Part shown: positions 4,612 to 45,180 of the stretch, one piece after another
Layout: each line of letters begins with the position of its first letter
How positions within the stretch are numbered: the first letter of the stretch is position 1
Origin: Ciborinia camelliae
Taxonomy: Eukaryota; Ascomycota; Leotiomycetes; Helotiales; Sclerotiniaceae
Length of the DNA stretch: 64,000 nt
Assembly: GCA_025890175.1 (NCBI GenBank)
Contig: JANPYM010000011.1
Span: 1,716,299-1,780,298 of the forward strand
Direction: 5' to 3'
Translations under genes and position numbers: made by a program
Notes under the pieces: generated by a model
What the model was told of the DNA's origin: nothing
What the model saw: the letters and a program-made list of their open reading frames with translations, nothing else
Databases searched by the model: none

Positions 4612-6092
4612 ATGTCGAACTTCAATTTGATCATAGCGAATACTCAACTATCTCTACTTTATCTGTTTCCTGTCGCCATCTTTGGGCTCGTCCTCAATCT
4701 ATATCGCAAAGCTATCCTTGGAAGGTCAAATCAGCAAAAGGCACACCCTGAAAATGAATATGCAGCCTTTGATAAGACAGCTACCTACAAGCCTCATGCC
4801 ACCCAGAACTCTCTCCAAGACTTGATCGATATAGATGGAGCTGGCACATGGCCTCCTACGACTGTGTATGGCGATGCTTGGCCAGAGGTCCTTCGACCTT
4901 TCCACGACATCTACCAGGCTATGGCACCTGCTCTGTCAACCGCAGAACTTAGCGGTGACGATGTGAAGAACTTTCAACGATGCTTGGACTTCCGTGTGCA
5001 GATGAGAACACTCTACAACGATCAAGTCAAAATGGAAGAAATAAAAGCCCTCTTAGACGCAGCAGAAAATGACGAGAGCGTTCTATCCCGTGCAGCTTGG
5101 AATGGCTTCTTCGCTTGCATCGCATTATCTCGACACTCCTTCCGGTAAGTACCCCTATTACCAGTTGCGCAACACTGAATCTCTCGCTAACAAAACGAAG
5201 ATGGGGAACAATTCCCATAGTTAAACTTGCCCAAGAAGAAAAGGTCATTGACTTCCCTGCCTGTCTAGACCTCGCCTGGCCATACCTCAAGAGACGATAT
5301 GGAGTTACATCCCAGGGAGGTAATGTCGCAAGTAACTATCTGTGCAACTTCGACGAAAGAGGTCAAATTGTCTACCCCATCAACCCTGGCATGGACGAGC
5401 TCATCCAATCTGCCGAATACCACTTCGGTCATGTCTTCCCTCACATCGAAAAAGAAGCTCTCCCAATTTATCATATGGTTACTAAAGCAATCCAACAATA
5501 TACCAATGGCGACCGCACCGGTACCCTGCAATCCCTCAAAGGTATCAACAAGGAGTTGCGCATACCCTTGAAAACATACTATGAAACCATGAACGAATCC
5601 AAGATCTCGCGAAAAGTTTGGATGCATTACGCACAAGGATTCCAAGGCTGGGCTGCTGGTGATATTGACCCTGTCACCGGGGAATATACCGAGTACGACG
5701 GCCTTTCCGGTAACCAGCTACTATTACCTCAGATCATGGATGCTTTCTTGGGTCTCGATAGGTACTTGAATGAGGAAAATACGCAACGCTATATGCCAAA
5801 CCTACAACGCAAATTCCGCGAAACAATCGCTCAGCATAGCTTCCGCAATGAGGCCAAGAAAAATGGAGATGATGACATCGAGAACGAAATGAACAACATT
5901 GTCAAGCAGATGAGAGTTTTCAGAACGGCACACAGAGTCAGAGTTAAGCCATACTTGAGCGTGCCAGCGCCAGAGCGCATGATCATGACAGCAGGAAAGT
6001 CTGTGCTAGAAAAGGATGATGTTCACGATTACGCGTCGGCGATTGAACCTTTGGATAAAATGTTGAGCGATAGACTTTTGGCGACGAAATAG
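4612..6092 (+). CDS. IDO/PrnB-like heme dioxygenase-family protein
   Basis: Two exons, 4612-5144 and 5201-6092, give 474 aa. The 56-nt intron starts GTAAGT, has a GCTAAC branch site, and joins the frame at Arg178. I chose the ATG at 4612 for its AAAATGTC context; the open frame runs further up only through a TTG. Residues about 13-30 form a hydrophobic segment (LSLLYLFPVAIFGLVLNLY region), so the protein is probably membrane-anchored, unlike ordinary cytosolic IDO. The C-terminal half has an indoleamine 2,3-dioxygenase superfamily layout: a GLSGNQLLLPQIMDAFLG segment, a YMPNLQRKF segment, and FRTAHRVRVKPYL, in which His422 would be the proximal heme ligand. Family members oxidise tryptophan-type indoles; PrnB in pyrrolnitrin synthesis is a divergent relative. 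Substrate is unknown. It sits 2.2 kb from the RiPP precursor and could be a tailoring enzyme, but co-membership is inference. Confidence 0.6.
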
Positions 6093-8026: not shown

Positions 8027-8244
8027 CTAAGATTCAGATCCTTCGCAATCACCACCATTTAAATGACCAGACCATTCTCGGACACGCTCGCGAAGGGAAG
8101 GCAAAACGAAAGCGCCTAAACCAACATCATTATCATCACCGCCAGAGACTGCTCCTTCGATCGATCGATGATTCTTGAAGCCGGGTTAGCAAAAACGTAC
8201 TAGCATGAGATACAGGTTATGTACTTACCAGAGAAGTCAAGAAT
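8027..8244 (-). other. 3' region of RiPP precursor with intron 8174-8228
   Basis: Just after the precursor stop codon the minus strand shows a textbook small intron of 55 nt: GTAAGT donor at 8228, GCTAAC branch site, and AG at 8175-8174. The exon beyond it (8173-8027) is open for 48 codons and ends in TAG, with a composition that looks coding (a GGDDNDVG stretch, then LPSLRERVREWSGHL). It is not in phase with the precursor frame, so by the simplest reading it is a spliced 3' UTR. A phase-0 join would instead continue the +1 frame of the repeats. Confidence 0.45.
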
Positions 8245-8679
8245 CTAGTTGACTGGGTATACGATAGCAGCGTCGGCATCTTTGACAGCAGCACGCTTTT
8301 CTGCCGGATAAACAATGGCAGTATCAGCATCTTTAGCGCGCTTTTCGGCGGGATAGACTATAGCAGTGTCGGAATCTTTCGCTCTTCTTTCGGTGGGATA
8401 AACGATAGCGGTGTCGGCATCCTTAGCACGCTTCTCAGCGGGGTATACAATAGCCGTATCGGCATCCTTTGCTCGTCTCTCGGCAGGGTATACTATGGCT
8501 GTATCGGCATCCTTAGCACGCTTCTCCGCTGGGTACACAATAGCTGTATCAGCATCAACAGCACGTCTAGCGTCTACAGGATAAACAATAGCAGTATCAG
8601 CATCTTTTGCAGGGTGGGCAATCGGAGATGCTGTGGCGAAGACGGCGAGAAGTGGGAGGAGAATGGTTGAGTAATGCAT
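8245..8679 (-). CDS. Secreted Kex2-processed repeat precursor (dikaritin-type RiPP)
   Basis: The 144-aa protein starts with a signal peptide (residues 1-18, cleavage probably near ATASP). It then carries eight near-identical units of about 15 aa. Each has a core DADTAIVYP; the sixth is DSDTAIVYP and the eighth DADAAIVYP. Core tyrosines are at 33, 49, 64, 79, 94, 109, 124 and 141. Seven dibasic Kex2 sites (RR or KR) end units one to seven; the last unit ends at the C-terminus without one. This architecture, a signal peptide followed by tandem cores with Kex2 linkers and a Tyr in each core, is that of UstA, PhomA and related dikaritin precursors and of KEP proteins. UstYa-type oxidases cyclise such cores through Tyr. 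A UstYa homologue lies 2.4 kb away on the opposite strand. The AIVYP core is not one I recognise. A non-RiPP role such as a pheromone-like or wall peptide remains possible. Confidence 0.85.
   Translation of the reverse strand: MHYSTILLPLLAVFATASPIAHPAKDADTAIVYPVDARRAVDADTAIVYPAEKRAKDADTAIVYPAERRAKDADTAIVYPAEKRAKDADTAIVYPTERRAKDSDTAIVYPAEKRAKDADTAIVYPAEKRAAVKDADAAIVYPVN
8248..8610 (-). repeat. Tandem 45-bp core-peptide repeats (8 units)
   Basis: Units encode A-K-D-A-D-T-A-I-V-Y-P-(A/T)-E-(K/R)-R. At DNA level they differ mostly at synonymous third positions (for example GCC/GCA/GCT for Ala and GTA/GTT/GTC for Val). The copies are therefore not freshly homogenised, and the peptide is under constraint. 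The first unit carries VDARR and the last AAVK instead of the consensus flanks. Confidence 0.85.
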
Positions 8680-8837
8680 TTTGATTGCTATTGTGGTTGC
8701 TTTGTTTGGTTTGAGAGTTGAGATAATTGGGCCAAAGGCTTATTGTTGAGGTTTATTGAGCTTGTTGGGAGTGAAGTGAAGTGAAGGAGATGATGATGTT
8801 TTTGATAGAGAGGTGGATGAAGGGGTATCCTCATCCT

Positions 8838-8843
8838 TTTATA
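8838..8843 (-). promoter_or_regulatory. TATA box of the RiPP precursor
   Basis: On the minus strand the sequence reads CTATAAAAGG about 160 nt upstream of the ATG at 8679, followed by a leader rich in CTTCACTTCA-type repeats. A strong TATA box fits a highly expressed secreted-peptide gene. Confidence 0.45.
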
Positions 8844-8849
8844 GATCCA

Positions 8850-11045
8850 TCCTCCAAGCTGGTGGGATATTGATGTTAGTGCTCTCTATGAAAGTTGTTG
8901 GAATTTTGCAACATCAACAGACCGAGTATCTCGACAAGGTTTGCTTTCCTCTTGAAACCCTGTGTGGATATGAACTCCTCTCAGCCGTCTATACGAAGTC
9001 GAGGCGCGTGAACATAAGGAACTTTCTGCATGTTCAGCATTTGTTTTCATATCAAAGAGCAACAACAACATCCCTGAAGCATGTTTTTCTGTAAATGTTT
9101 GGATCTCCTCTTCTAACCAAGTCAAACGCCAGGTCTTACATCAGCTGTACCCCTTGAGATATATGTGTCACTGGTTGGCCATGAAATGCCGAAAAAGTCC
9201 TTTGCTGGGAGGGCTGTGCGCGTCTCTTGAGATGCATATTGATGAAGATAACATTGATTGAGGTTTATGGCTTCATCATCGACTGCAGAAGGTACGACAA
9301 CGGGTTGGGATGGGACACTCTCATGCATGAGTTACTGTTGAGTTTGCCCTGCGAGGTTTCGACTTGAGGCCAGCCATGATGAGCTTCTCGTTCTTGGGCC
9401 CTCCGTATTCGAAGCCATTGTTCTTGTTACTTGCACTTCTTCCCGCTCCTTGAAGCGCATGATTTTGTTGAGGAAGTGTGTGGAAAGGCACGCCATAAAG
9501 CCAAGACAGCCGTCTAACCAACTTGACGAGTTTCTATCTTAGGGGCCGAAAGGAGTCCAGCCAAGCTGGCCACCTTCTGATGCCCAAAACTCTCATGTAA
9601 AAACTCAAATTCAATCTATGTATGCAACAGGGCTAGGTAAGTGCAAACTCTTCCAAGGCAGCAGCAAGGCAACAGCCTACCATAAGATTGGGACGTTGTG
9701 GAGAATATCCTATTTCCACAAAAGCTACCATACAGGAGTCTATGCAGACTTTTCTCTGTATAAATTGGACGGATGCGACCCTGATAACTTAACGTAATAC
9801 CAATATCCCCACACTTTGTTACACGTGATTAATTAAAGACGATGCATGTTCCTGCATACATGTCTCAGTTTAGGCAACTCGCAACATCGAAGTTCTTCAT
9901 TCAGCTGCTTCTGGGCTTGAAGAGACTCCACCAAAGCAACGTTGTTCAATACGACTACGTTGGTGTGAAGCTCGGCAAAGATAGTCTAGTGAGCCACTCA
10001 TACCTGTACATCCACAAGACGTCTATTTCGAGCCTACTATCCCGCAAACTACCTCATTTCTTGATGTAACCAGTCAGCGTGGTTTCAAGTATGTTTCTTA
10101 GCTACTACTTGTGTCTTGCCTCGTGGCCGACAAAGTATACTGGTAATAGAGCTTTGTAACACAGCCGAATACAGCGGTGAATAAGAAATAACATAACAAA
10201 AAACGGGCAGTAAGCACTAGACTTGCCATGCGACGATAACCTAGGTAGGTCATCATCTTATGCAGTAGATGAGAACATGGTAAAAATACTACATGGACGA
10301 ATAAGCCCATGAGAATCGAGATTGCTTTTGATGTTGCACCGCTCGGGGCTTAGGATATGCTATGAAATATTATTGGACACCAATATCTGCAGCGAATCTC
10401 AAAGAAATTCTAGATTCGAAGGGTGACATAATTTTTGGATGTCCAATTATGGTTGAAACGTTAGGATGGGCTGTCTTCGGATGTCTTGCCAAGAAATTTG
10501 TCAAGACCTTGACTTTCTAAAATACCACCCACACAGCCATTAAGAGCTCGTGTGACACTTCTCGAAGACCATTAGAAGTTCTCAATGGAAAATACCGTAA
10601 TTAACCGGACTGTGGCGACTCGCGAGTGTAACATCATTGTCCAAAACCAATCATCACCATCTGTGATCAGCTGACGTGACACAACATCATCCGTTTATAT
10701 ACAATTCTCCGGGCGTTTTCACTGGAGGCTTTTCAGCCGTAGCTGATTAATGTCTACCGATAAAATACAGATACAACAGTTAAGTCGTGACTTTGATGGC
10801 GTAATGTCGTTTGCGCTTCATCAATTCTTTGGTGATGGAGATGAAACAGTCTGAAGATGGCGTAGTTCTCCATGTTCCCTGATACGATGGATTGAATCGC
10901 CATCTAGCAGCCTGTATATGGTAAGTTGTCATGAAGCCTCTGGTAAAGTGTAATACCCCCTCCCCGATTACCCCATTCTCTATCTTTGCAATTATCTCAA
11001 CATCTATCTGTTTCCTCTTCCTCAAAATTCAACACTTGTTCAATT
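8850..11045. other. Intergenic between precursor and UstYa gene
   Basis: This 2.2-kb stretch is the shared upstream region of two divergent genes. Minus-strand open frames at 8886-9521 partly abut one another but have no recognisable motif or consistent splicing. Upstream of the UstYa gene there is TATATA near 10697 and a CT-rich leader from about 10990. A regulator-binding site common to both genes could lie here, but none can be named. Confidence 0.4.
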
Positions 11046-12234
11046 ATGCCTTTCTTCTCGCAGCAATCTTGGGCTTCCAAAAGCCTTGAGGGGTACCGAT
11101 CAGTACAAAATTCGTCAGAAGAGAGGCGACCCGACACCGACGATGCAGCATCTTCAGATGCTACCCTCCTGGAGAAAGAGGTCCAAGATGCACGACGCAG
11201 AGACTCATACTATAGTCGCCATTCTCGATTTATTCAACTGAATGGTCTTGTTTTCTTGTTTTATATTGCAACCATTCTTCTGATAATCAAACATTTTCGA
11301 TCGCAGGCTCTCAAGGGACCAAACGTGATTCATTGTAAGAGAAAGCTCACATCTGACTTTGGAAGCGAAACATCCAATTGACTGACGTCAACTTAGCTCC
11401 TGCTTATAATGCAATAACATGGCAAGAACAAGCTTACACCGAAACCGACACACACCACGGTCCATTTTCAGGGTATCCTCGACCCGAGATTGATCAGAAC
11501 TGGCACGAGCTTCTAACTGGTCCGTAGCATATCCTCGAGGCCCCATTGGTATTAGATATGAAGACTAATCACTTCTCTTAAGCTTATAATATCGAGCTGG
11601 AACCCGAAATAATGCAGCGCTTCGACCGCGAAGACACGGGGGTCAAAGTTCCGGGCAGTAATAAATACATCGGAACTCTCAACGTTTTCCATGAACTCCA
11701 CTGCATTGTAAAGCGCAGCATAACCCTACAATATTGTGTATACTAACGAAACTCCAGAAACGTCTGTACTCTTATAGTTATCCTGAGGTATACTGGGCAG
11801 ATCTCAGTGAAAAACAGCGGGAAGTGAATCGTATACATAATGGTACTGCCAATCCACAGATATTTTGGAATGATAAACTAACAGGGAAACCATAGAGCAC
11901 TGTCTTGACTTTCTCCGCCAGGCAGCCATGTGTCATGGAGACATTGGAATTGTGACATATGAATGGTCTGAAGATAGCTTGATGCCAGTGACCAATCAAA
12001 CTACACATCAATGTATTGACTGGAGACGATTGAATGACTGGAGTAAAGAGAGAAGTGTTGATATGATGAAACCTGGTTGGCTCGTTCACCCTACAAAAGG
12101 TATTTTCAAAGTCCTAGGAAATAATTGAACAACAGATTTTTGACATAAGTGCAGGTCCGGCTTACCCTGATGGAGAGGGGAGTCGCCTCGGGGTATTCAA
12201 AGGTGCTGATGAGGTATTGAGCCATGGACATTGA
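11046..12234 (+). CDS. UstYa-family (DUF3328) oxidase
   Basis: Six exons give 301 aa: 11046-11334, 11397-11519, 11583-11707, 11758-11842, 11896-12099 and 12155-12234. The N-terminal tail is cytosolic and charged. One transmembrane helix lies at about residues 64-82 (LNGLVFLFYIATILLIIKHF), and the rest should face the secretory lumen. The family's two hallmark motifs are present: HELHC (174-178) and HNEHC (206-210), the second split by intron 4. They are followed by LDFLRQAAMC and a THQCIDW segment near the end, all typical of UstYa/UstYb proteins. These proteins catalyse oxidative cyclisation of Tyr-containing cores in ustiloxin, phomopsin and asperipin pathways and are thought to be metal-dependent. 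The frame is fully open when spliced this way, so the gene looks intact. The nearby precursor is the obvious substrate. The last 26-codon exon is the least certain part. Confidence 0.88.
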
Positions 12235-13399: not shown

Positions 13400-13582
13400 G
13401 AAAACATGCAGGGTTGTCACTTCAAGCTGGCCACCGCAATTGAGTTGGGAATAAGAAACGATCATCATCATAACTTGTTGATTGATGGTGCTCTGTGGCA
13501 CTACGTGCATTGTAATTTTTCTGCCATGTATGTACTTATACAGGCAAATATTGATACATCCTGATCATACACAACCTCACAT

Positions 13583-14278
13583 CTATAAGACCGGTTGTCT
13601 CTCCCTAAATTGATCTTCCTTCATAAAACCCTCCTGCAGAATGTCAGATTCGGTAGCTCCCTCTGCCTCCTCTCCCATAATAACCTCCGAGTCCTTCGCC
13701 ATAGCTGCATCATATTTCCTCACTTGCTCCATAATCTCTTCCTTTGTAATTCCATACCCATGCTCATCCAGATAAACTTCCTCCTTTGGCGGCAAACCTA
13801 TCTTTTCCCTCTGAGCCCTGAATCTCTCCTTCACAGTATCCGTCTGCATGATCCTCCATCTCAGTTTCCAACCTCCCATTCCCAACTCCTTTAGTCTGCG
13901 CGTCTTCTCCCCTAATAGATATTCATCCAACCCCCCTGCTTTATCAATTGTCCTCAACACCTTTGTAGTGACTCTCAATTTGATCTGCTTTCCCAAACTT
14001 GGGCTATAAAGATGTTTCCTCTGCACGTTCGGTCGCCAATGCCGTCTGGTTTTGATTTCGTTTTTCTCCGAAACTATGTTTCCATAGCGAATCTTTTGGA
14101 GGCCGTAGAGACCAAAATTGGATTGTTTGTAAAATTGAGAGGGGCCGTATGGATACGGTGGGACGCCGGCGTGCTCGGCTGCTAATCGTAGTTTTGTGGA
14201 TTTTGCGAGAATTCTAGCTGTGGAGGTAAAAGTTCGAGTGAAGGAGAGGGAGGGGTGGATTGGTGGGAGTAGAGGCAT
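13583..14278 (-). CDS. MRPL24: Mitochondrial ribosomal protein bL28m (copy 1)
   Basis: The protein is 231 aa starting at the ATG at 14278; the frame extends upstream only to a TTG. The N-terminus is basic and Ser/Thr-rich with no acidic residues for about 30 aa (SFTRTFTSTARILAKSTKLR), a mitochondrial targeting sequence. The core has the L28 signature: GNIVSEKNEIKTRRHWRPN followed by KQIKLRVTTKVLRTIDKAGGLDEYLL. Fungal bL28m (yeast Mrpl24) carries a long C-terminal extension like the acidic one seen here. It belongs to the large subunit of the mitoribosome. This copy is identical to the one at 15300-15995 and is most likely an assembly duplicate of the same locus. Confidence 0.88.
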   Translation of the reverse strand: MPLLPPIHPSLSFTRTFTSTARILAKSTKLRLAAEHAGVPPYPYGPSQFYKQSNFGLYGLQKIRYGNIVSEKNEIKTRRHWRPNVQRKHLYSPSLGKQIKLRVTTKVLRTIDKAGGLDEYLLGEKTRRLKELGMGGWKLRWRIMQTDTVKERFRAQREKIGLPPKEEVYLDEHGYGITKEEIMEQVRKYDAAMAKDSEVIMGEEAEGATESDILQEGFMKEDQFRERQPVL

Positions 14279-14817
14279 GGTGGATGAGGCGACGCTGAGC
14301 GTCAATTCTAGTCGTGTATGGCGTCAATTCTAGACTCGTATTGACTGATGCTTCGAGATTATCACTGGTGGCTAGCAGTTCATCGATATTCGCGGTAGAA
14401 TTGCTTCTTCTGACCCATTTCAAAATAACTTCGTCGTTATCGCCATAATTTTTAGTTCTGATAGATAAACATGCCTGAGGCCATAATATCAAATTTATAC
14501 CTACCTACCTAGGTACCTAGATGGATCCAATGGGCCTGGACCCCACTGATGCTCGCAATACAAATCCATCATCGAATTAAGCTTTTTATTTCACTTGTCT
14601 TCAAGTTTGCGCTTCATTTCCTAACTCTGTCATGTTCAAAAATCTCCCAACCGTTAAAGATGTTGTATCGTGTCCCAAGTGGTGACGTGACCATCTAACC
14701 TTAGGGTTATAATCTCAGTTTGCAACTTTACTTTCACCGTTTCCAAACATACTCCCACTATGCATAACAAAACCAAATTTATCGCCAAATAGATTTTCTA
14801 GTACTTGCTTCATAAGA

Positions 14818-15106
14818 CTATTCCTCCATGATAGCAAACATTGCCTGTACCCGTGGAATCTTCCATTCGGGGTTCTCCCTGCGCTTAAATTCCTTCAATC
14901 TCTCACATGTCGTCTCAACCACAGGCCCTAACAGGTCATAAATACTCTGGTGGATCCCAGGCATGTTTCCTTGCAATGTCTTTGCTAGGCCGATGATTCG
15001 TCTTCGTTCACTGAAGGTCCCGCCATCCTCATCTCCGGCGACATAGGTGATAGATCGAACTGATGATAGAACCCGAGCGATGGTATGCACGGTCGAGCCT
15101 GTAATT
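14818..15106 (-). pseudogene. 2EXR-protein 3' fragment cut by assembly gap
   Basis: The last 90 or so codons of the protein encoded at 16535-17230 are repeated here and run into the N gap at their 5' side. This is a truncated assembly copy, not an independent gene. Confidence 0.85.
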
Positions 15107-15116: not shown

Positions 15117-16823
15117 GAAAACATGCAGGGTTGTCACTTCAAGCTGGCCACCGCAATTGAGTTGGGAATAAGAAACGATCATCATCATAACTTGTTGATT
15201 GATGGTGCTCTGTGGCACTACGTGCATTGTAATTTTTCTGCCATGTATGTACTTATACAGGCAAATATTGATACATCCTGATCATACACAACCTCACATC
15301 TATAAGACCGGTTGTCTCTCCCTAAATTGATCTTCCTTCATAAAACCCTCCTGCAGAATGTCAGATTCGGTAGCTCCCTCTGCCTCCTCTCCCATAATAA
15401 CCTCCGAGTCCTTCGCCATAGCTGCATCATATTTCCTCACTTGCTCCATAATCTCTTCCTTTGTAATTCCATACCCATGCTCATCCAGATAAACTTCCTC
15501 CTTTGGCGGCAAACCTATCTTTTCCCTCTGAGCCCTGAATCTCTCCTTCACAGTATCCGTCTGCATGATCCTCCATCTCAGTTTCCAACCTCCCATTCCC
15601 AACTCCTTTAGTCTGCGCGTCTTCTCCCCTAATAGATATTCATCCAACCCCCCTGCTTTATCAATTGTCCTCAACACCTTTGTAGTGACTCTCAATTTGA
15701 TCTGCTTTCCCAAACTTGGGCTATAAAGATGTTTCCTCTGCACGTTCGGTCGCCAATGCCGTCTGGTTTTGATTTCGTTTTTCTCCGAAACTATGTTTCC
15801 ATAGCGAATCTTTTGGAGGCCGTAGAGACCAAAATTGGATTGTTTGTAAAATTGAGAGGGGCCGTATGGATACGGTGGGACGCCGGCGTGCTCGGCTGCT
15901 AATCGTAGTTTTGTGGATTTTGCGAGAATTCTAGCTGTGGAGGTAAAAGTTCGAGTGAAGGAGAGGGAGGGGTGGATTGGTGGGAGTAGAGGCATGGTGG
16001 ATGAGGCGACGCTGAGCGTCAATTCTAGTCGTGTATGGCGTCAATTCTAGACTCGTATTGACTGATGCTTCGAGATTATCACTGGTGGCTAGCAGTTCAT
16101 CGATATTCGCGGTAGAATTGCTTCTTCTGACCCATTTCAAAATAACTTCGTCGTTATCGCCATAATTTTTAGTTCTGATAGATAAACATGCCTGAGGCCA
16201 TAATATCAAATTTATACCTACCTACCTAGGTACCTAGATGGATCCAATGGGCCTGGACCCCACTGATGCTCGCAATACAAATCCATCATCGAATTAAGCT
16301 TTTTATTTCACTTGTCTTCAAGTTTGCGCTTCATTTCCTAACTCTGTCATGTTCAAAAATCTCCCAACCGTTAAAGATGTTGTATCGTGTCCCAAGTGGT
16401 GACGTGACCATCTAACCTTAGGGTTATAATCTCAGTTTGCAACTTTACTTTCACCGTTTCCAAACATACTCCCACTATGCATAACAAAACCAAATTTATC
16501 GCCAAATAGATTTTCTAGTACTTGCTTCATAAGACTATTCCTCCATGATAGCAAACATTGCCTGTACCCGTGGAATCTTCCATTCGGGGTTCTCCCTGCG
16601 CTTAAATTCCTTCAATCTCTCACATGTCGTCTCAACCACAGGCCCTAACAGGTCATAAATACTCTGGTGGATCCCAGGCATGTTTCCTTGCAATGTCTTT
16701 GCTAGGCCGATGATTCGTCTTCGTTCACTGAAGGTCCCGCCATCCTCATCTCCGGCGACATAGGTGATAGATCGAACTGATGATAGAACCCGAGCGATGG
16801 TATGCACGGTCGAGCCTGTAATT
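15117..16823. repeat. Copy 2 of the 1,707-bp duplicated contig end
   Basis: It starts immediately after the gap and matches 13400-15106 base for base where I compared it. It continues without interruption into unique sequence after 16823, so this copy carries the complete downstream gene. Confidence 0.9.
15300..15995 (-). CDS. MRPL24: Mitochondrial ribosomal protein bL28m (copy 2)
   Basis: It encodes the same 231-aa protein as 13583-14278: a mitochondrial targeting sequence, then the L28 core, then an acidic C-terminal tail. This copy is contiguous with the intact 2EXR gene upstream, so it is the better reference for the locus. True biology is probably a single gene. Confidence 0.88.
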   Translation of the reverse strand: MPLLPPIHPSLSFTRTFTSTARILAKSTKLRLAAEHAGVPPYPYGPSQFYKQSNFGLYGLQKIRYGNIVSEKNEIKTRRHWRPNVQRKHLYSPSLGKQIKLRVTTKVLRTIDKAGGLDEYLLGEKTRRLKELGMGGWKLRWRIMQTDTVKERFRAQREKIGLPPKEEVYLDEHGYGITKEEIMEQVRKYDAAMAKDSEVIMGEEAEGATESDILQEGFMKEDQFRERQPVL

Positions 16824-38722: not shown

Positions 38723-41700
38723 TTAAACCAAAGCCCCTCTTCCCCCAACCCTCAACAATGCAATCTTCTGCTCGGCACTAATCTCGACCTCTGGCAAAGG
38801 CAAAGCCTTCGCATGCGCTCCCTTCCCTCCAGGCAAAGGCAAAGGCAAAAACCCAATGCCCGCCAAATAAGCCAAATAGTTACCCATAATCTGCTCGTCC
38901 AAACAACCGCCCGCACTTAAATCCTCGCCCGTAAACTCGGCGTCGGCACGGAGGGAGTGTGCCGCATTGGCATCGTCCATTTCGGGCGCGATGGTGTCGG
39001 CTGGGAGATCCGAGGTGGCGAAATGGTAGAGGGGCATCAGGGCGTGCTGTTCCTTTTCCGGCGTGGGGTCCGCGGCGTATTCTTGGAGTTTCTGGCTCCA
39101 GATGGGGTATTCTACTTCGGGGACGCTGTAGCCGTATGTTTCGAGCGTGGAGAGGTATTGGGAGAAGGTGAGACGGGGGTGAGATGTTACTTGTGCGACG
39201 CCAAGAGGAGTCTTGGCGGGATGGAGTGCGCATGCGATGACGACGCGCGCCACATGGTTTACGGGGACTTGGTTGACTGTGTTGGAAATGCGGGGACGGC
39301 AGGAAAGTTGGATGCAGCCCTTTGCCATGCGGATGAGGAAATCATCGGTGTTGGTTACTCCGGATATTTTGTCTCCTGTGATATATCCAGGTCTGACGAC
39401 GGTACCCCGGAGACCGCGAGAACCAGCTGTGCGGACGAGGTATTCGGCTACCCATTTAGTTTGGCCGTAGCCTGTGCCGAGACCCTTTGCTGAACCGGAG
39501 AGGTCATCTTCTTCGGAGACTGGGACGCCGGATCGTGATTGCTTGACGAAGTGGTCGGTATCGAGAACAGAGGTAGATGAGACGAAGGAGAGACGCTTGG
39601 GGATACCAGTTGCGCAAAGGGAAAGAATATCGAGAGTTCCCTTAACGTTAGCGGGCTTAAGGTTTTGATATGGGTAAACCCAGTGAACTTGAGCTCCATT
39701 ATGTATAATTACGTTAGCAGTCTCGGAGACGGTCTTCCAGTCCTCCGGAGAAAGGCCGAGTTGTGGTTCTCCAAGGTTACCGACAACGCAAGAGATGCGG
39801 GATGTCCAAGAAGGGTCCCAGACTCCATAAGCTTGGCAAGTTTGGATAACGCGATCGAGGGCTGCTTTGGAGTCGAGTGCGCGCACATGAGCAATTACTT
39901 TAATAGGTTGAGAGCGGGAGAGAAGGTCGCGCATAAGGTAGGAACCGAGGAAACCGGTGGCACCAGTGAGAAAGACGGTAAGAGGAGTGGTTGGTGTGAT
40001 CTTCTCGTCTGCTGAGGGGAATGTTGATGGAAGAGTTTTGGCAAGAGCATGGGCATCTCCTGCATAATCCTCGGCGACTTCAGCCTCCTCTTTTACATCA
40101 CCGTCAGATGAGGATCTACGTGCGATCTCTCCGGCGAATCCCTTCAAGGTAGGGTTTCGGAAAACAACACTCATGTTGATGTTAATGCCAGTCCATTTCT
40201 TGTTGACCTTGAAAAGCATTTGTTGTGCCAAGATACTGTGTCCACCAATATCGAAGAACGAATCGTCAGGATTAATGGTTCTTTCGTCAATAGTAGGAAT
40301 CAACGATCCCCAAATGGCTGCAACCTCTTTCTCGGTATCTGAGAGTTCGGAATATGCTCCAACCGGTCTTGCTGCCGCCAACTGTGCAGCATCTGGGAAT
40401 GGAAGTGCAGGCTTGTCCTTCTTTCCATTTGGATTCAGGGGGAATTTGTCCAAAGGAATGATGACTTCAGGAATTGCGTAGGTGGGTAACTTGGTCTTGA
40501 GATATTTCTTGATATCTTCACCGAGAGGCCAGAATCTTCGAAGTCTTCCTTGAATTCCTTCGCCACCGGAAGTATCATCTTGAAGTCCTAATTGTTCTAA
40601 CCACTGTGCCCATTTTTGCATGTCGGGTACGATGTAGCTGACGAGTGTTTGCTCTTCGTCCTTGTTTCTTCTGACCAAAGTGACGTTATCCATAACCATG
40701 ACGTGATCTGAGAGATATTTGTCAATTTCACCAAGTTCAATTCTGAAACCACGAATCTTGACTTGATCATCTGCTCGACCAACACACTCTACATCTCCGG
40801 TTTGAGTATATCGGCCCAGATCACCTGATCGATACATTCGATCTCTTGGACCTTTATAGAACTCTCTCCATGGTTCTTCGGATAAGGATTTTGCGTTCTT
40901 TCCATCTTCCTCAACCCACTTGGAGTTATCAACAAACCAACTGTCAATGAACTTGGCTTTGTTGAGTTCGTCACTTCCAAGATAGCCTTCAGCAAGTCCA
41001 GCAGCACGAACGTAAATCTCGCCAATCTCGCCAATATTACAAATACGGTTTCGGTTTTCACGATCGACGATCAGTAGTTGCACATCCTTCATACCCTTAC
41101 CAGCGGGAATGACATTTCCCATGTTCTCTAAATATTGTGGATCCGAAGCTCTGCTTGGAATCTCGTAGTAACTGACTGCACGCTGTGTTTCCGTTGTTCC
41201 ATACATGTTCACAATGAACACATTTGGAGCCAACTTTTGAAGAGCCTTGCAATCCCTCTTAATCAAAATATCTCCGACGAAAAAGGAGTGATGAAGGGCA
41301 GGAAATTCAGCACTAGCTCCACCAACTAGAATTTGACCCATTGCAGGTGTCAAGTGAGTAACAGTCGCACCATGCTCTCTCATCCATTCAGCCAATCTTT
41401 CATGCTGAATATCATCCTTTGATGGAACCAATAACTGGGCGCCGAGGAAAAGAGGTGTAAAGATATCTCTTTGAATAGGATCATGTGCAATACCACTCAA
41501 CATCGTGAACTTATCGTTCTTGGACAAACCAAATCTCTCCGCCATCCAGTCAAAATAGTATGCAAGAGAGTAATGTCTTCCTCGAACACCCTTTGGACGA
41601 CCTTCGGAACCCGAGGTAAATGACAAAGTTGGTGTGGAATCTGGTCCAACAATGACACCTGGACTCTTGGCCTTCAATGATTGCTGGTCCTGGAAAACAT

Positions 41701-42238
41701 CCTTTCCTTGATCATCGCCACCAACTAAAGTACCGTCGTCTTTCAATTCGAGACCAGGGATGTGGGTCTTCAAATCCAAATTCTCGGCGATGAAGTTGCG
41801 TACTTTCTCAGTCAACTCTCCAGCTTCTCTAGTGGCTTTATCGATGACTACCAAAGCCCTTGGTCTCGCAACATCAAGATAGATGTTTTGTCGATCAGGG
41901 GGATAAGAAGGATCAATAACTGAGAAAATGGCACCGGCTTTCAAGATACCCATGACTGTGACGACCAAGTCCACACCACGGTAACTATATGACATGACAA
42001 CTTCATCCCGCTTGACTCCACGCTCCACCAAATGGTGAGCTAGGATATTTGAAGCCTCATTGATTTGTCGGTAGGTGAATTCTCTCCTTGGGGAAGATGC
42101 TGAGGCAGTTTCCACTACACAGAGTCTTTCAGGGTGGGCTTCAGCATTTGCAGTGAAGATATCCTGGATTGCACCACGGAAAGCAGACCAATGAAGATCT
42201 GATGTTGGATCTGGTAGTTCGAAGTTTGTTGATGCCAT
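38723..42238 (-). CDS. LYS2: L-2-aminoadipate reductase (alpha-aminoadipate reductase)
   Basis: A single exon encodes 1,171 aa. I start at the ATG at 42238 (MASTNFELPDP); a farther ATG adds 36 residues with no homology and lies in the leader. Domain order is adenylation (about 1-600; LSFTSGSEGRPKGV core, YRSGDLGRYTQTGDVECVGRADDQVKIRGFRIELGEID), then a carrier domain (FFDIGGHS, phosphopantetheinylated Ser668), then an NAD(P)H thioester reductase (GATGFLG at 759-765, with a Rossmann fold and a TKWVAEYLV helix). The enzyme activates alpha-aminoadipate with ATP, holds it as a thioester on the carrier, and reduces it to the semialdehyde in fungal lysine biosynthesis. It needs Ppt-transferase (Lys5-type) activation. 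Length matches the family. Confidence 0.96.
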   Translation of the reverse strand: MASTNFELPDPTSDLHWSAFRGAIQDIFTANAEAHPERLCVVETASASSPRREFTYRQINEASNILAHHLVERGVKRDEVVMSYSYRGVDLVVTVMGILKAGAIFSVIDPSYPPDRQNIYLDVARPRALVVIDKATREAGELTEKVRNFIAENLDLKTHIPGLELKDDGTLVGGDDQGKDVFQDQQSLKAKSPGVIVGPDSTPTLSFTSGSEGRPKGVRGRHYSLAYYFDWMAERFGLSKNDKFTMLSGIAHDPIQRDIFTPLFLGAQLLVPSKDDIQHERLAEWMREHGATVTHLTPAMGQILVGGASAEFPALHHSFFVGDILIKRDCKALQKLAPNVFIVNMYGTTETQRAVSYYEIPSRASDPQYLENMGNVIPAGKGMKDVQLLIVDRENRNRICNIGEIGEIYVRAAGLAEGYLGSDELNKAKFIDSWFVDNSKWVEEDGKNAKSLSEEPWREFYKGPRDRMYRSGDLGRYTQTGDVECVGRADDQVKIRGFRIELGEIDKYLSDHVMVMDNVTLVRRNKDEEQTLVSYIVPDMQKWAQWLEQLGLQDDTSGGEGIQGRLRRFWPLGEDIKKYLKTKLPTYAIPEVIIPLDKFPLNPNGKKDKPALPFPDAAQLAAARPVGAYSELSDTEKEVAAIWGSLIPTIDERTINPDDSFFDIGGHSILAQQMLFKVNKKWTGININMSVVFRNPTLKGFAGEIARRSSSDGDVKEEAEVAEDYAGDAHALAKTLPSTFPSADEKITPTTPLTVFLTGATGFLGSYLMRDLLSRSQPIKVIAHVRALDSKAALDRVIQTCQAYGVWDPSWTSRISCVVGNLGEPQLGLSPEDWKTVSETANVIIHNGAQVHWVYPYQNLKPANVKGTLDILSLCATGIPKRLSFVSSTSVLDTDHFVKQSRSGVPVSEEDDLSGSAKGLGTGYGQTKWVAEYLVRTAGSRGLRGTVVRPGYITGDKISGVTNTDDFLIRMAKGCIQLSCRPRISNTVNQVPVNHVARVVIACALHPAKTPLGVAQVTSHPRLTFSQYLSTLETYGYSVPEVEYPIWSQKLQEYAADPTPEKEQHALMPLYHFATSDLPADTIAPEMDDANAAHSLRADAEFTGEDLSAGGCLDEQIMGNYLAYLAGIGFLPLPLPGGKGAHAKALPLPEVEISAEQKIALLRVGGRGALV

Positions 42239-43317
42239 GGTTGTGAGGTTTTTGGATTGTGGGGTGGGGTTTCCAGTGGAGGGGTAAAAATTGAGCAAGA
42301 TTTTAAAATGATGCTTGAACTGTTTTTGATTTGAGAAGGATTTCAACTACCTACTTCAAATCAAAACAAGTCCAATGTACGTTTTATATAATCTTCACCC
42401 AATTTTTAGGTGTTTGAATTAGCGGTATCCGGAGGGAATGGATCAACGTTGGGATTGTGAAGTGTTGAAGTGAATCACTGATAAATTTAAGATAGGACAG
42501 AAGAACCGATCGATAAGTTTGGGAGGTGAGTGGAATGTGACTTGGGTTGTTTTTTTGTAAAGAATGAGAAGAGGAAGAAGAAGAAGAAGGATAGCGAGAT
42601 TCTAGAGAGAGGGAGATCTTGACACGGAATTTATAACAATCGAATGGGGGATGGAAAGAAAAGATTGGGAGTCATACATATATTAAGGTTACACCTCCAA
42701 CACAGAAAAATATAAAAAAATATCCCGAATATCAGCCAGCTACTTCACTTGAAACAAAACATTTTTGATTCCCTTGATTCCGTCATCGGAGCTCACGTGG
42801 TCAATATATTTTTCAATCCAATCACCCCTGCCAAGATCTCCAAAAAGATGATATGGAGAAATGTTTTTCCGATGCTATTTCTTTCCGATTTGGGGTAAAA
42901 CCAATAAACAATTTAAAGGCTTATTTACAATATATTATAGGTAGGTACCTATAACTTCAACCGTGTTCCACTTAAATGAAGACTAAAAATAGAGTCGGGG
43001 AAAGAGAGATGGACGGGACACTCTAGACACATTGATTTTCTCCTATGCATCTGAGTCGGAATTGCAAGATCTCGACAACTATAATACTTTGTTCCAATTC
43101 TATCCTTTTCTCAGATCTTTTCCTTCTCTACTGTACTTATCCTCTACTCCATATTTAAATTTGATTTCTTTGGCTGGTAAACTTAAGCTCAGCTAAGGTC
43201 TTCCAGAAGGCTATATTGTACCTACCTACCTTTGATACATGGGTGACGGCATATAAGTCAGCTCATTCACGAGTGTGGTTTAATAGATTGTATACTGTCT
43301 CTATTCCTTTTCCCGCA
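42239..43317. promoter_or_regulatory. Shared upstream region of LYS2 and a membrane-protein gene
   Basis: About 1.1 kb between two divergent starts. It contains a GAAGAAGAAGAAG purine tract near 42570, a CACGTGG E-box-like site near 42795 and a GTAGGTACCTA motif near 42942. A TGACTC/TGAGTC-type Gcn4/CpcA site, expected for a lysine gene, was not obvious to me by eye near the LYS2 start; TGAGTGG near 42529 is only partial. Confidence 0.35.
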
Positions 43318-45180
43318 ATGCCTGTTCAAAGAACCCTTTTCGGGAGACCGATCCCTCATGTTCCTCCTCGCCGCATGGCTGTTCTTCTCGGAACTATAGC
43401 AATTTTCGCTGTCATAACATTAGTCTTTACTCTTCCCAACTCGATACCATCAGGCCCATCACTCGGCAGATTCACAGATCATCGCATGTCATTACCAAAA
43501 CTCCCTAAACAATTATCTTCACCGAGTATCCTCAATCCTTTCCGACAAGCAGCACACGCTCCACCAGTTCAGAAGAATAGCACATATGGTGAATCAAAAT
43601 GGCATGCTAATTGGAACTGGCTCAGTCCATTTTCATCATCGGTGACACTAGACGAAAATCGATCGTTACTACCACCTCTTGCGGAACGTCCAACAATTTA
43701 TACATACTATGATCACACATTGGAAAAGAAAGACGAGTTGAAGGATGCGGAGAACGCGCTTCTGGTTACATGGAGAAGGGCATGGTGGGCACAAGGTTTC
43801 AAGCCCATAATTTTGAGTCCTGCAGAAGCCATGAACAATCCATTATATCCCGAATTACAACGACTTGGAGAAATCGATCCTTCTTTGAAAACCGATCTCA
43901 CCAGATGGTTAGCTTGGGAAAATATGGGGACTGGATTACTTTGCAATTATCTCACACTCCCAATGGGCCCTCATGAAGATCAAACCTTGAGTTATTTGAG
44001 AAGGGGAGAATATCCATCATTAACGAGATATGATGAAATGGGAAGTGGTATCTTTTCAGGATCAAAAGTGGATATCACAGCAGCTGTCAAATCAGCTTTG
44101 GCAAATTCGAATCTGAAAGATGCCAAAGATTTTATCAGCGCTGTACCAAAAGATACCTTCAAAATTGATCCTTCCCACGATTCTTTGGCCTTCTACCAGA
44201 TGAACATAATAGAGGAGAAATATCCACAAATTTCGAAGGAATTTGAAGGAAATAACGCAGCGGGTATGCAGCTTTTAAACAAGCTCATGGTATCTCATCT
44301 CCACCAAACCTGGCAAAATATCTTCACCAAGGGAATTTCAGTGGTCAAACCGGAACCAGAACATATGTCATATGTTATCGAGCCAGCTCTACAACTCGCT
44401 GAGTATCTTGCTCAGTGTCCCGAATCGCCAATGCCAGCATCGTGTCCTCCTAACCGGCCAAAATGCAAACCATGTGTTGCTTCATCTCCGATGACAATCA
44501 GCACTCCTGCTTTCTATCGCAATACCTCAGGCCTCTACACCATCGGAACTGTCCCCCATCCCTACACAATGGCCACATTGAGCAGCTTCCAAGAAACCAT
44601 TGATGTGCCATGGATCAGACGAAAGTCGACTCGCGATGCCTGGCTCTCAATTCTCGCCAAAGAACTCCTTGGTACAGGCGTTTCCGGCACCCCACGTATC
44701 ATAAAATTTAAGGAAGCAGTCGCAAGTCCACACGGAACATCGCATTCCCTCTGGCTCACAGCTGAAAAAGACATCCCCTCCGATCTCGACTGGCATTTCG
44801 GCTTCACCATCCCCCGCAACGCAACCGACACAGGAAAATCGGAAACCCCGGTTCCAGGACCAGAGCGTAGACCTAAACCCGTCCATGATCCAAAAGATGG
44901 ACCAATTCCAACCGACGAAGACAAAAAGAAGGAAGAATTCTTGTTGGAAAAAGCAAAGCTGTTTGGTGGGAGTCAGAAGGTTGAAGATTTAAAGATTAGG
45001 GGGGCGGTTGAGGCGTGGAGTTTAGCGGATACCGAAGCGTGGAGATTTGCGAGGGCATTTTTGGCGAGGAGTAGAGTGGAGAGGTTGAAGTGGGAAGAGG
45101 AAGAAAAGAAATATGCGGGTGGTGCGGGCGCGGAGAGGGGGAGAGAATCCGGATGGGGGAGGTGGTTTGATGATAAATAA
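43318..45180 (+). CDS. Type II membrane protein, glycosyltransferase-like
   Basis: A single exon encodes 620 aa from the ATG at 43318 (MPVQRTLFGRP). Upstream in-frame ATGs exist, but this one sits at the hydrophobic anchor's natural N-terminus. One transmembrane helix at residues 20-39 (MAVLLGTIAIFAVITLVFTL) follows basic residues, so the bulk should face the Golgi lumen. Residues about 145-220 read RPTIYTYYD, then ALLVTWRRAWWAQGFKPIIL, then RWLAWENMGTGLLCNYLTLPM. This resembles the nucleotide-sugar-binding half of GT-A proteins, in which the last segment normally has a DxD; here that motif is not evident. A CPPNRPKCKPC cluster (C376, C383, C386) follows. Conserved fungal protein; enzymatic activity is unproven. 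Confidence 0.7.
   Translation: MPVQRTLFGRPIPHVPPRRMAVLLGTIAIFAVITLVFTLPNSIPSGPSLGRFTDHRMSLPKLPKQLSSPSILNPFRQAAHAPPVQKNSTYGESKWHANWNWLSPFSSSVTLDENRSLLPPLAERPTIYTYYDHTLEKKDELKDAENALLVTWRRAWWAQGFKPIILSPAEAMNNPLYPELQRLGEIDPSLKTDLTRWLAWENMGTGLLCNYLTLPMGPHEDQTLSYLRRGEYPSLTRYDEMGSGIFSGSKVDITAAVKSALANSNLKDAKDFISAVPKDTFKIDPSHDSLAFYQMNIIEEKYPQISKEFEGNNAAGMQLLNKLMVSHLHQTWQNIFTKGISVVKPEPEHMSYVIEPALQLAEYLAQCPESPMPASCPPNRPKCKPCVASSPMTISTPAFYRNTSGLYTIGTVPHPYTMATLSSFQETIDVPWIRRKSTRDAWLSILAKELLGTGVSGTPRIIKFKEAVASPHGTSHSLWLTAEKDIPSDLDWHFGFTIPRNATDTGKSETPVPGPERRPKPVHDPKDGPIPTDEDKKKEEFLLEKAKLFGGSQKVEDLKIRGAVEAWSLADTEAWRFARAFLARSRVERLKWEEEEKKYAGGAGAERGRESGWGRWFDDK

Follow-up and report, generated by a model that had tools for sequence, protein, structure and literature searches.

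Introduction

The protein that defines the dikaritin class of fungal ribosomally synthesized and post-translationally modified peptides (RiPPs) is a DUF3328 (UstYa) protein with two HXXHC motifs (PMC12048977). An older five-gene definition names a tyrosinase, a methyltransferase, several DUF3328 proteins, and a transporter or peptidase, but working dikaritin clusters that lack some of these genes are known (PMC12048977). Asperipin-2a has been reported to need one DUF3328 oxidase, and the account of its four-gene cluster lists no tyrosinase (PMC6514808). A protein counts as a KEX2-processed repeat protein (KEP) if it has a signal peptide and if three or more repeats, set between KEX2 sites, account for no less than 15% of it (PMC6339444). 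In this study, we examined a KEP gene and a UstYa gene that lie close together in a 64,000-nucleotide stretch of the genome of Ciborinia camelliae (contig JANPYM010000011.1, positions 1,716,299 to 1,780,298). This whole stretch is called the window, and positions are counted from its first nucleotide.

A survey of KEPs across fungi found a DUF3328 gene no more than 15 genes away for 1,758 of 7,878, with the count peaking at the next gene, and reported that Tyr-containing repeats are more frequent in this subset (65.6% versus 38.2%) (Umemura 2020, PMC7329392). Nine dikaritin clusters have been named in Venturia inaequalis by pairing precursors with UstYa genes (PMC9632046), and such pairs are routinely called dikaritin clusters. 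A sequence-only reading of the window had proposed that its gene pair carries the published dikaritin-type signature, which is borne out by the use of the same rule in V. inaequalis. The observation itself, a repeat precursor with a UstYa gene, is confirmed by our analysis, and the dikaritin interpretation is partly supported. The two genes lie near each other without disruption, UstYa retains both of its HXXHC motifs, and selection has kept the core peptide strongly conserved. We consider it rather probable that the locus is a minimal two-gene dikaritin-like RiPP unit yielding an oxidized, most likely Tyr-crosslinked, secreted peptide. The gene pair is believable but fairly typical of cyclic-peptide systems.

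The precursor and selection on its core

The precursor (coordinates of all features are collected in Table 1) has the hydrophobic N-terminus MHYSTILLPLLAVFATASPIA, which resembles a signal peptide as judged by eye. Six of its cores read DADTAIVYP, and the remaining two are DSDTAIVYP and DADAAIVYP. Tyr is present in all eight, and the core is invariant at seven of its nine positions. Every one of the seven spacers holds a single dibasic site (RR or KR), and the outer edges of the array have none (PAK before the first core, VN-stop after the last). Tandem Repeats Finder identifies 7.1 copies of a 45-bp repeat at 8290-8611. With eight 9-residue cores in 144 amino acids (aa), seven KR/RR sites, and a signal peptide by inspection, this protein agrees with the definition of a KEP, and the earlier description of a secreted-type precursor with eight Tyr repeats and dibasic sites is upheld. 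The start of the span proposed for the locus (8027..12234) falls 218 bp past the precursor's stop codon.

An alpha-type mating pheromone was considered and ruled out because the precursor has no Cys across its 144 aa, whereas such peptides in Leotiomycetes are described as having two conserved cysteines (PMC6339444). On the opposite strand, a 153-aa frame (8209-8670, +) crosses the repeats and is probably a by-product of their codon pattern. One relative of the precursor, P0001, was found when 854 candidates from a database holding 5.8 billion proteins were scored; it is located on a 1-kb contig, and its five cores are all identical to DADTAIVYP. Searching the C. camelliae genome itself with the precursor gave a single match only.

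Strong purifying selection acts on the core peptide. When the eight cores are compared, the proportion of synonymous differences (pS) is 0.70 and that of nonsynonymous differences (pN) is 0.025, for a ratio of 0.036. In other words, the core DNA differs nearly as far as synonymous sites permit, and the protein hardly differs at all. The 32 nucleotide differences from the consensus core result in only 2 amino acid changes, whereas a neutral simulation gave a mean of 21.4 changes and a minimum of 11 in 20,000 runs. Because pS is high, pN is low, and the simulation never reaches 2 changes, we infer that the repeats are old and that the peptide itself has been selected. Five spacers of equal length are conserved less strongly than the cores (pN of 0.095). 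A chance repeat is ruled out by this synonymous/nonsynonymous test on the eight cores.

The UstYa gene and its relatives

The sequence-only reading had also described an intact UstYa gene on the opposite strand about 2.4 kb away, and this description is correct. The gene has six exons and five introns, all of the GT..AG type, and the 301-aa protein scores 169 bits against the Pfam UstYa model (cutoff of 25). It carries the two HXXHC motifs that define the dikaritin class, here HELHC and HNEHC. The best database match is a Monilinia laxa protein, and we consider the gene model sound because this match has the same length and is 87% identical. A DUF3328 transcript, possibly that of another gene, has been reported as raised in M. 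laxa in a Monilinia transcriptome paper (PMC5987419).

A word-based search (412 candidates scored) gave 74 homologs of UstYa, 14 of them without an organism name. With 48 of the 74 aligned, the HXXHC residues were found to be invariant or nearly so, and a structure model of the M. laxa homolog (P0002) has a mean pLDDT (predicted local distance difference test) of 70 and a pTM (predicted template modeling score) of 0.54, with a predicted long helix at 60-90. A PDB sequence search with UstYa gave no chain at an E value of 1 or less, and Foldseek gave no match of the P0002 model to PDB at an E value of 0.001. Because of this Foldseek result, we draw no conclusion from the fold.

After M. laxa, proteins from Hypoxylon and Pseudogymnoascus are the closest to UstYa (54-57% identical), and paralogs are far more distant (approximately 24-40% over longer matches in the examined stretches). 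Because no named homolog from this word-based search (14 rows nameless) comes from Botrytis or Sclerotinia, the gene looks patchy within the family. We built a quick tree with 75 rows and a careful tree with 64 rows, from which 11 short, long-branched, or unnamed homologs had been removed. In both trees, the window UstYa groups with M. laxa in a clade that we call A, which has 21 rows in the careful tree (bootstrap of 99; Shimodaira-Hasegawa-like approximate likelihood ratio test [SH-aLRT] of 94). Other members come from Hypoxylon, Pseudogymnoascus, Cordyceps, Beauveria, Colletotrichum, and others, and judging from these homologs, clade A is spread over many Pezizomycotina.

A separate group of UstYa proteins forms clade B (bootstrap of 96; SH-aLRT of 89). 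Clade A and clade B proteins appear on one contig in seven species, as judged from equally sized contigs (P0012/P0027, P0013/P0044, P0019/P0036, P0024/P0020, P0028/P0032, P0033/P0042, and P0067/P0051). Near-consecutive locus tags back two A/B pairs, V2A60_005670/005672 in Cordyceps javanica and TPAR_07846/07844 in Tolypocladium (TPAR_07846 is present in the quick tree only). Colletotrichum higginsianum is a counter-case, with its A and B rows on contigs of different size. This distribution suggests that a conserved UstYa/UstYb-like pair exists in other fungi, and that the window has only its clade A member. Such a pattern might arise if the locus is a reduced remnant, left from an ancestral UstYa/UstYb cluster after the loss of the partner oxidase and further genes, and does not yield a finished product today. 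The contig also lacks tyrosinase and S41 peptidase matches (see below), as this explanation would predict. However, we regard a remnant as very improbable given that both genes are intact and that the repeats are under strong purifying selection. Furthermore, Pseudogymnoascus and Hypoxylon, the nearest relatives after Monilinia, gave clade A rows only, and one oxidase may thus be the normal state of this branch.

Pairing of precursor and UstYa genes

The precursor and UstYa genes diverge from start codons that lie on opposite strands with 2,366 bp between them. This arrangement agrees with the proximity of precursor and DUF3328 genes that is expected of dikaritins. In the genome (46.2 Mb, 27 contigs), we combined 58 UstYa exon matches into 43 genes, joining those that shared a strand and were separated by less than 900 bp. 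Chance pairing is unlikely because only approximately 0.56% of the genome is within 2.4 kb of any of these UstYa-like genes.

A repeat-precursor finder was then applied to 20 of 33 chosen stretches around UstYa genes, each 10 kb long, and it gave hits in five of them. One hit (L017) was dropped because it represents an Arg/Pro/His-rich reading of another frame and has no signal-peptide-like start within 600 bp upstream. The other four repeat precursors were kept (Table 1). They are located 1.1-2.1 kb from the nearest UstYa match, and each has an upstream signal-peptide-like start, by eye. By comparison, if KEPs were scattered at random with 5.25 per strain, a published mean for ascomycetes rather than a figure for this genome, only 0.02 would be expected in 200 kb. 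UstYa genes mark repeat precursors in this genome, as they do across fungi (Umemura 2020). The genome appears to encode five or more UstYa-linked precursors, whose cores are quite unlike one another, and these provide a useful set for studying the residue choice of the oxidases.

These results bear on the main rival to an oxidized product, which is that the precursor gives rise to linear unmodified secreted peptides that serve in signaling or interaction, and that the UstYa gene is an unrelated neighbor. In the survey noted above, 6,120 of the 7,878 KEPs have no DUF3328 gene within 15 genes (Umemura 2020, PMC7329392). Linear and minimally modified KEP peptides have been detected in four agaricomycetes (PMC9769878), and one paper treats KEPs as unmodified by definition (PMC7099791). 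Likewise, no recognized peptide-tailoring enzyme besides UstYa is present among the 29 nearby open reading frames (ORFs) that were scanned, although small exons could escape such a scan. Regardless, we consider linear peptides unlikely because the nearness to a UstYa gene has a chance of only about 0.6%, because UstYa genes mark precursors elsewhere in the genome, and because the Tyr-containing core is a better fit to the DUF3328-associated class.

Table 1. Positions of the features described in the text. Rows L010 to L021 refer to the 10-kb stretches around other UstYa genes, and all other rows refer to the window.
Feature	Position	Strand	Remarks
Repeat precursor (KEP) gene	8245..8679	-	144 aa, uninterrupted frame, eight DADTAIVYP-type cores after signal-peptide-like start
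Putative signal peptide, approximately residues 1-17	8629..8679	-	Sequence inspection
Eight-core array with seven KR/RR spacers, residues 26-142	8254..8604	-	
Region between divergent start codons, 2,366 bp	8680..11045	.	Only short ORFs, none recognized as a gene
UstYa (DUF3328) oxidase gene, 301 aa	11046..12234	+	Six exons: 11046-11334, 11397-11519, 11583-11707, 11758-11842, 11896-12099, 12155-12234
Exon 3 of UstYa, first HXXHC motif (HELHC, residues 174-178)	11583..11707	+	
Exons 4 and 5 of UstYa, intron 11843-11895	11758..12099	+	HNEHC (residues 206-210) spans the junction
Precursor L010	2061-2372	-	Core type NAYQMFSDIERR
Precursor L019	8333-8590	+	Core type SADEDLIEQYKR
Precursor L020	7354-7827	+	Core type EPDRSVVGTGSDRYKR
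Precursor L021	7848-8483	+	Core type AV.IPNADG..DAAELW

In L019, the DEDLIEQY array (about 8333-8700) appears to continue in another frame after its first part, through an intron or a frameshift.

Surroundings of the gene pair

The Pfam scan covered the spliced UstYa protein and 29 chosen ORFs of the 96 in the window that encode at least 100 aa, with 20 of these 29 located at 1-27 kb. The recognized neighbors of the pair are housekeeping genes: indoleamine dioxygenase (IDO; match in frame 5073-6089), mitochondrial ribosomal protein L28, two 2EXR proteins, VPS39, Gon7, and HbrB. The window contains one DUF3328 gene. Elsewhere in the genome, there is one match to the kexin-type P_proprotein domain, on contig C21. 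A genome search for MFS proteins, covering 9 of 432 candidates, carries no weight either way as to a transporter.

Several results weigh against a dikaritin assignment. The genome has 12 tyrosinase matches and 4 S41 peptidase matches (best candidates scored), and none of these are on the contig that carries the pair (C3). No methyltransferase, transporter, or other usual dikaritin accessory gene was found among the 29 ORFs scanned, and the locus does not have the gene content of the older five-gene definition. The clade B partner seen in seven other fungi is missing, and the core lacks the EDYXI pattern of ustiloxins and phomopsins. To call the core undescribed, as the sequence-only reading did, was too strong: a conserved motif from a published survey (motif 3, DADAATXYV[A/V]D) agrees with it at 6 of 10 positions, and a genome search with the motif consensus yields this precursor alone. 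The claim of a compact cluster is correct insofar as the pair is close and intact, but it does not extend further, given the absence of tyrosinase and S41 matches on the contig and the presence of IDO, L28, 2EXR, and VPS39 genes as neighbors. A wider cluster was rejected on the basis of those absent matches, and the locus is a gene pair rather than a full cluster.

Three other features of the window were observed. A 1,707-bp stretch with the L28 gene occurs twice (13400-15106 and 15117-16823), with 100% identity and a gap of 10 N between the copies. This duplication is most likely an assembly artifact from untrimmed contig ends. A large ORF at 38723-42346 (-) has AMP-binding, PP-binding, and reductase domains according to Pfam, and it probably encodes what we take to be an alpha-aminoadipate-reductase-like enzyme. 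Finally, a 671-aa open frame at 43165-45180 (+) has no Pfam match at an E value of 0.001.

Proposed pathway and chemistry

By analogy with known families, a sequence of events can be proposed that involves KEX2 processing, use of the precursor as the substrate of this UstYa, oxidation chemistry, and secretion. The precursor would enter the endoplasmic reticulum via its signal peptide, and KEX2 would cut after each KR or RR to give AKDADTAIVYPAE-type peptides. UstYa, a membrane-anchored oxidase, would then act on the conserved Tyr. The most likely outcome would be an oxidative ether crosslink (loss of 2 H), formed without a tyrosinase between Tyr and an aliphatic residue close by, for example the Ile that precedes it by two positions. 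This Ile would be the natural partner because Pro follows Tyr, although the bond type is presumed. The trimmed product would subsequently be secreted, and our guess is that it serves as a metabolite acting on the host or on competitors.

Alternatively, UstYa might oxidize the peptide in another way, by hydroxylation, chlorination, or desaturation, and form no Tyr ether ring. In cyclochlorotine clusters, both hydroxylation and chlorination have been reported for DUF3328 proteins (PMC12048977). We view this alternative as quite improbable given that Tyr is flanked by I-V and P in all eight cores, as would be expected if Tyr reacts. This argument is weak, however, since only two of the nine core positions vary at all.

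If the product is indeed Tyr crosslinked, a more specific and doubtful proposal can be made, in which the lone clade A UstYa, with neither a tyrosinase nor UstYb, joins the Tyr oxygen backwards to the preceding Ile or Val (A-I-V-Y-P). If this is true, the backward Tyr ring would constitute a distinct, chemically uncharacterized dikaritin subclass related to the Pezizomycotina DADAAT..Y.. family. If a product is made, the two-gene unit would be among the smallest fungal cyclic-peptide systems and would offer a clean test of one UstYa acting alone. It could also reveal the chemical nature of a core motif that the survey found to be conserved but left unexplained.

Comparison with known cores and clusters

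A text search of the literature for AIVYP returned only papers with unrelated titles, and among the matches listed for DAD-type strings, the sole fungal-peptide paper was that of Le Marquer et al. The core is named in none of the dikaritin, UstY, KEP, or Monilinia papers found (supplementary tables were outside the scope of these searches). The new conserved Pezizomycotina KEP cores reported in that survey include motif 3 (Le Marquer et al. 2019, PMC6339444). Motif 3 aligns with DADTAIVYPAE without gaps and at equal length, and the identities among its 10 specified positions follow the pattern D-A-D-x-A-x-x-Y-x-A-[D/E]. The two differ around Tyr, where motif 3 has TXYV[A/V]D and the precursor has IVYPAE. 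This similarity is modest, as 1,526 of 100,000 shuffles of the precursor peptide match motif 3 equally well, a figure uncorrected for the comparison of five motifs. The match of the motif 3 consensus to the genome (E value of 4e-5; 2 candidates in the first look) is helped by the A/D richness of both sequences. When motif 3 was used as a query, no match was found among the 7,992 protein database candidates sharing most words with it, which were the only ones scored. The core is probably a variant of this surveyed and apparently chemically uncharacterized motif.

Among the published KEP types, G-6 has Y and several D residues in its repeat, and 46 of its 49 members have a DUF3328 gene nearby (Umemura 2020, PMC7329392, Table 2). 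Eleven of the 19 G-6 genera are also among the genera of the named UstYa homologs. The same overlap for other types is 3/20 for G-3, 5/19 for G-5, 3/18 for G-8, 4/11 for G-10, 4/35 for G-2, and 3/17 for G-7. This points to G-6 and the precursor being one family, although the link is circumstantial in that Monilinia is absent from the G-6 genus list and genus names alone were matched.

The precursor resembles those of ustiloxins and phomopsins in having a signal peptide, many repeats between KR sites, an associated UstYa-family oxidase, and a core Tyr. However, ustiloxin and phomopsin repeats share EDYXI, in which Tyr precedes an aliphatic residue, whereas Tyr follows I-V here (PMC6339444). At best, the core agrees with EDYXI at 2 of 4 positions, a level reached by 46,729 of 100,000 shuffles. 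Moreover, ustiloxin and phomopsin pathways are described as including a tyrosinase and two or more DUF3328 proteins. The asperipin-2a core, FYYTGY, has three Tyr residues and gives a bicyclic product, and its cluster includes transporter and reductase genes, neither of which was recognized beside the pair described here. Nevertheless, the asperipin-2a cluster (aprA, aprY, aprT, and aprR) is likewise very small, and its gene list contains a single DUF3328 oxidase but no tyrosinase (PMC6514808).

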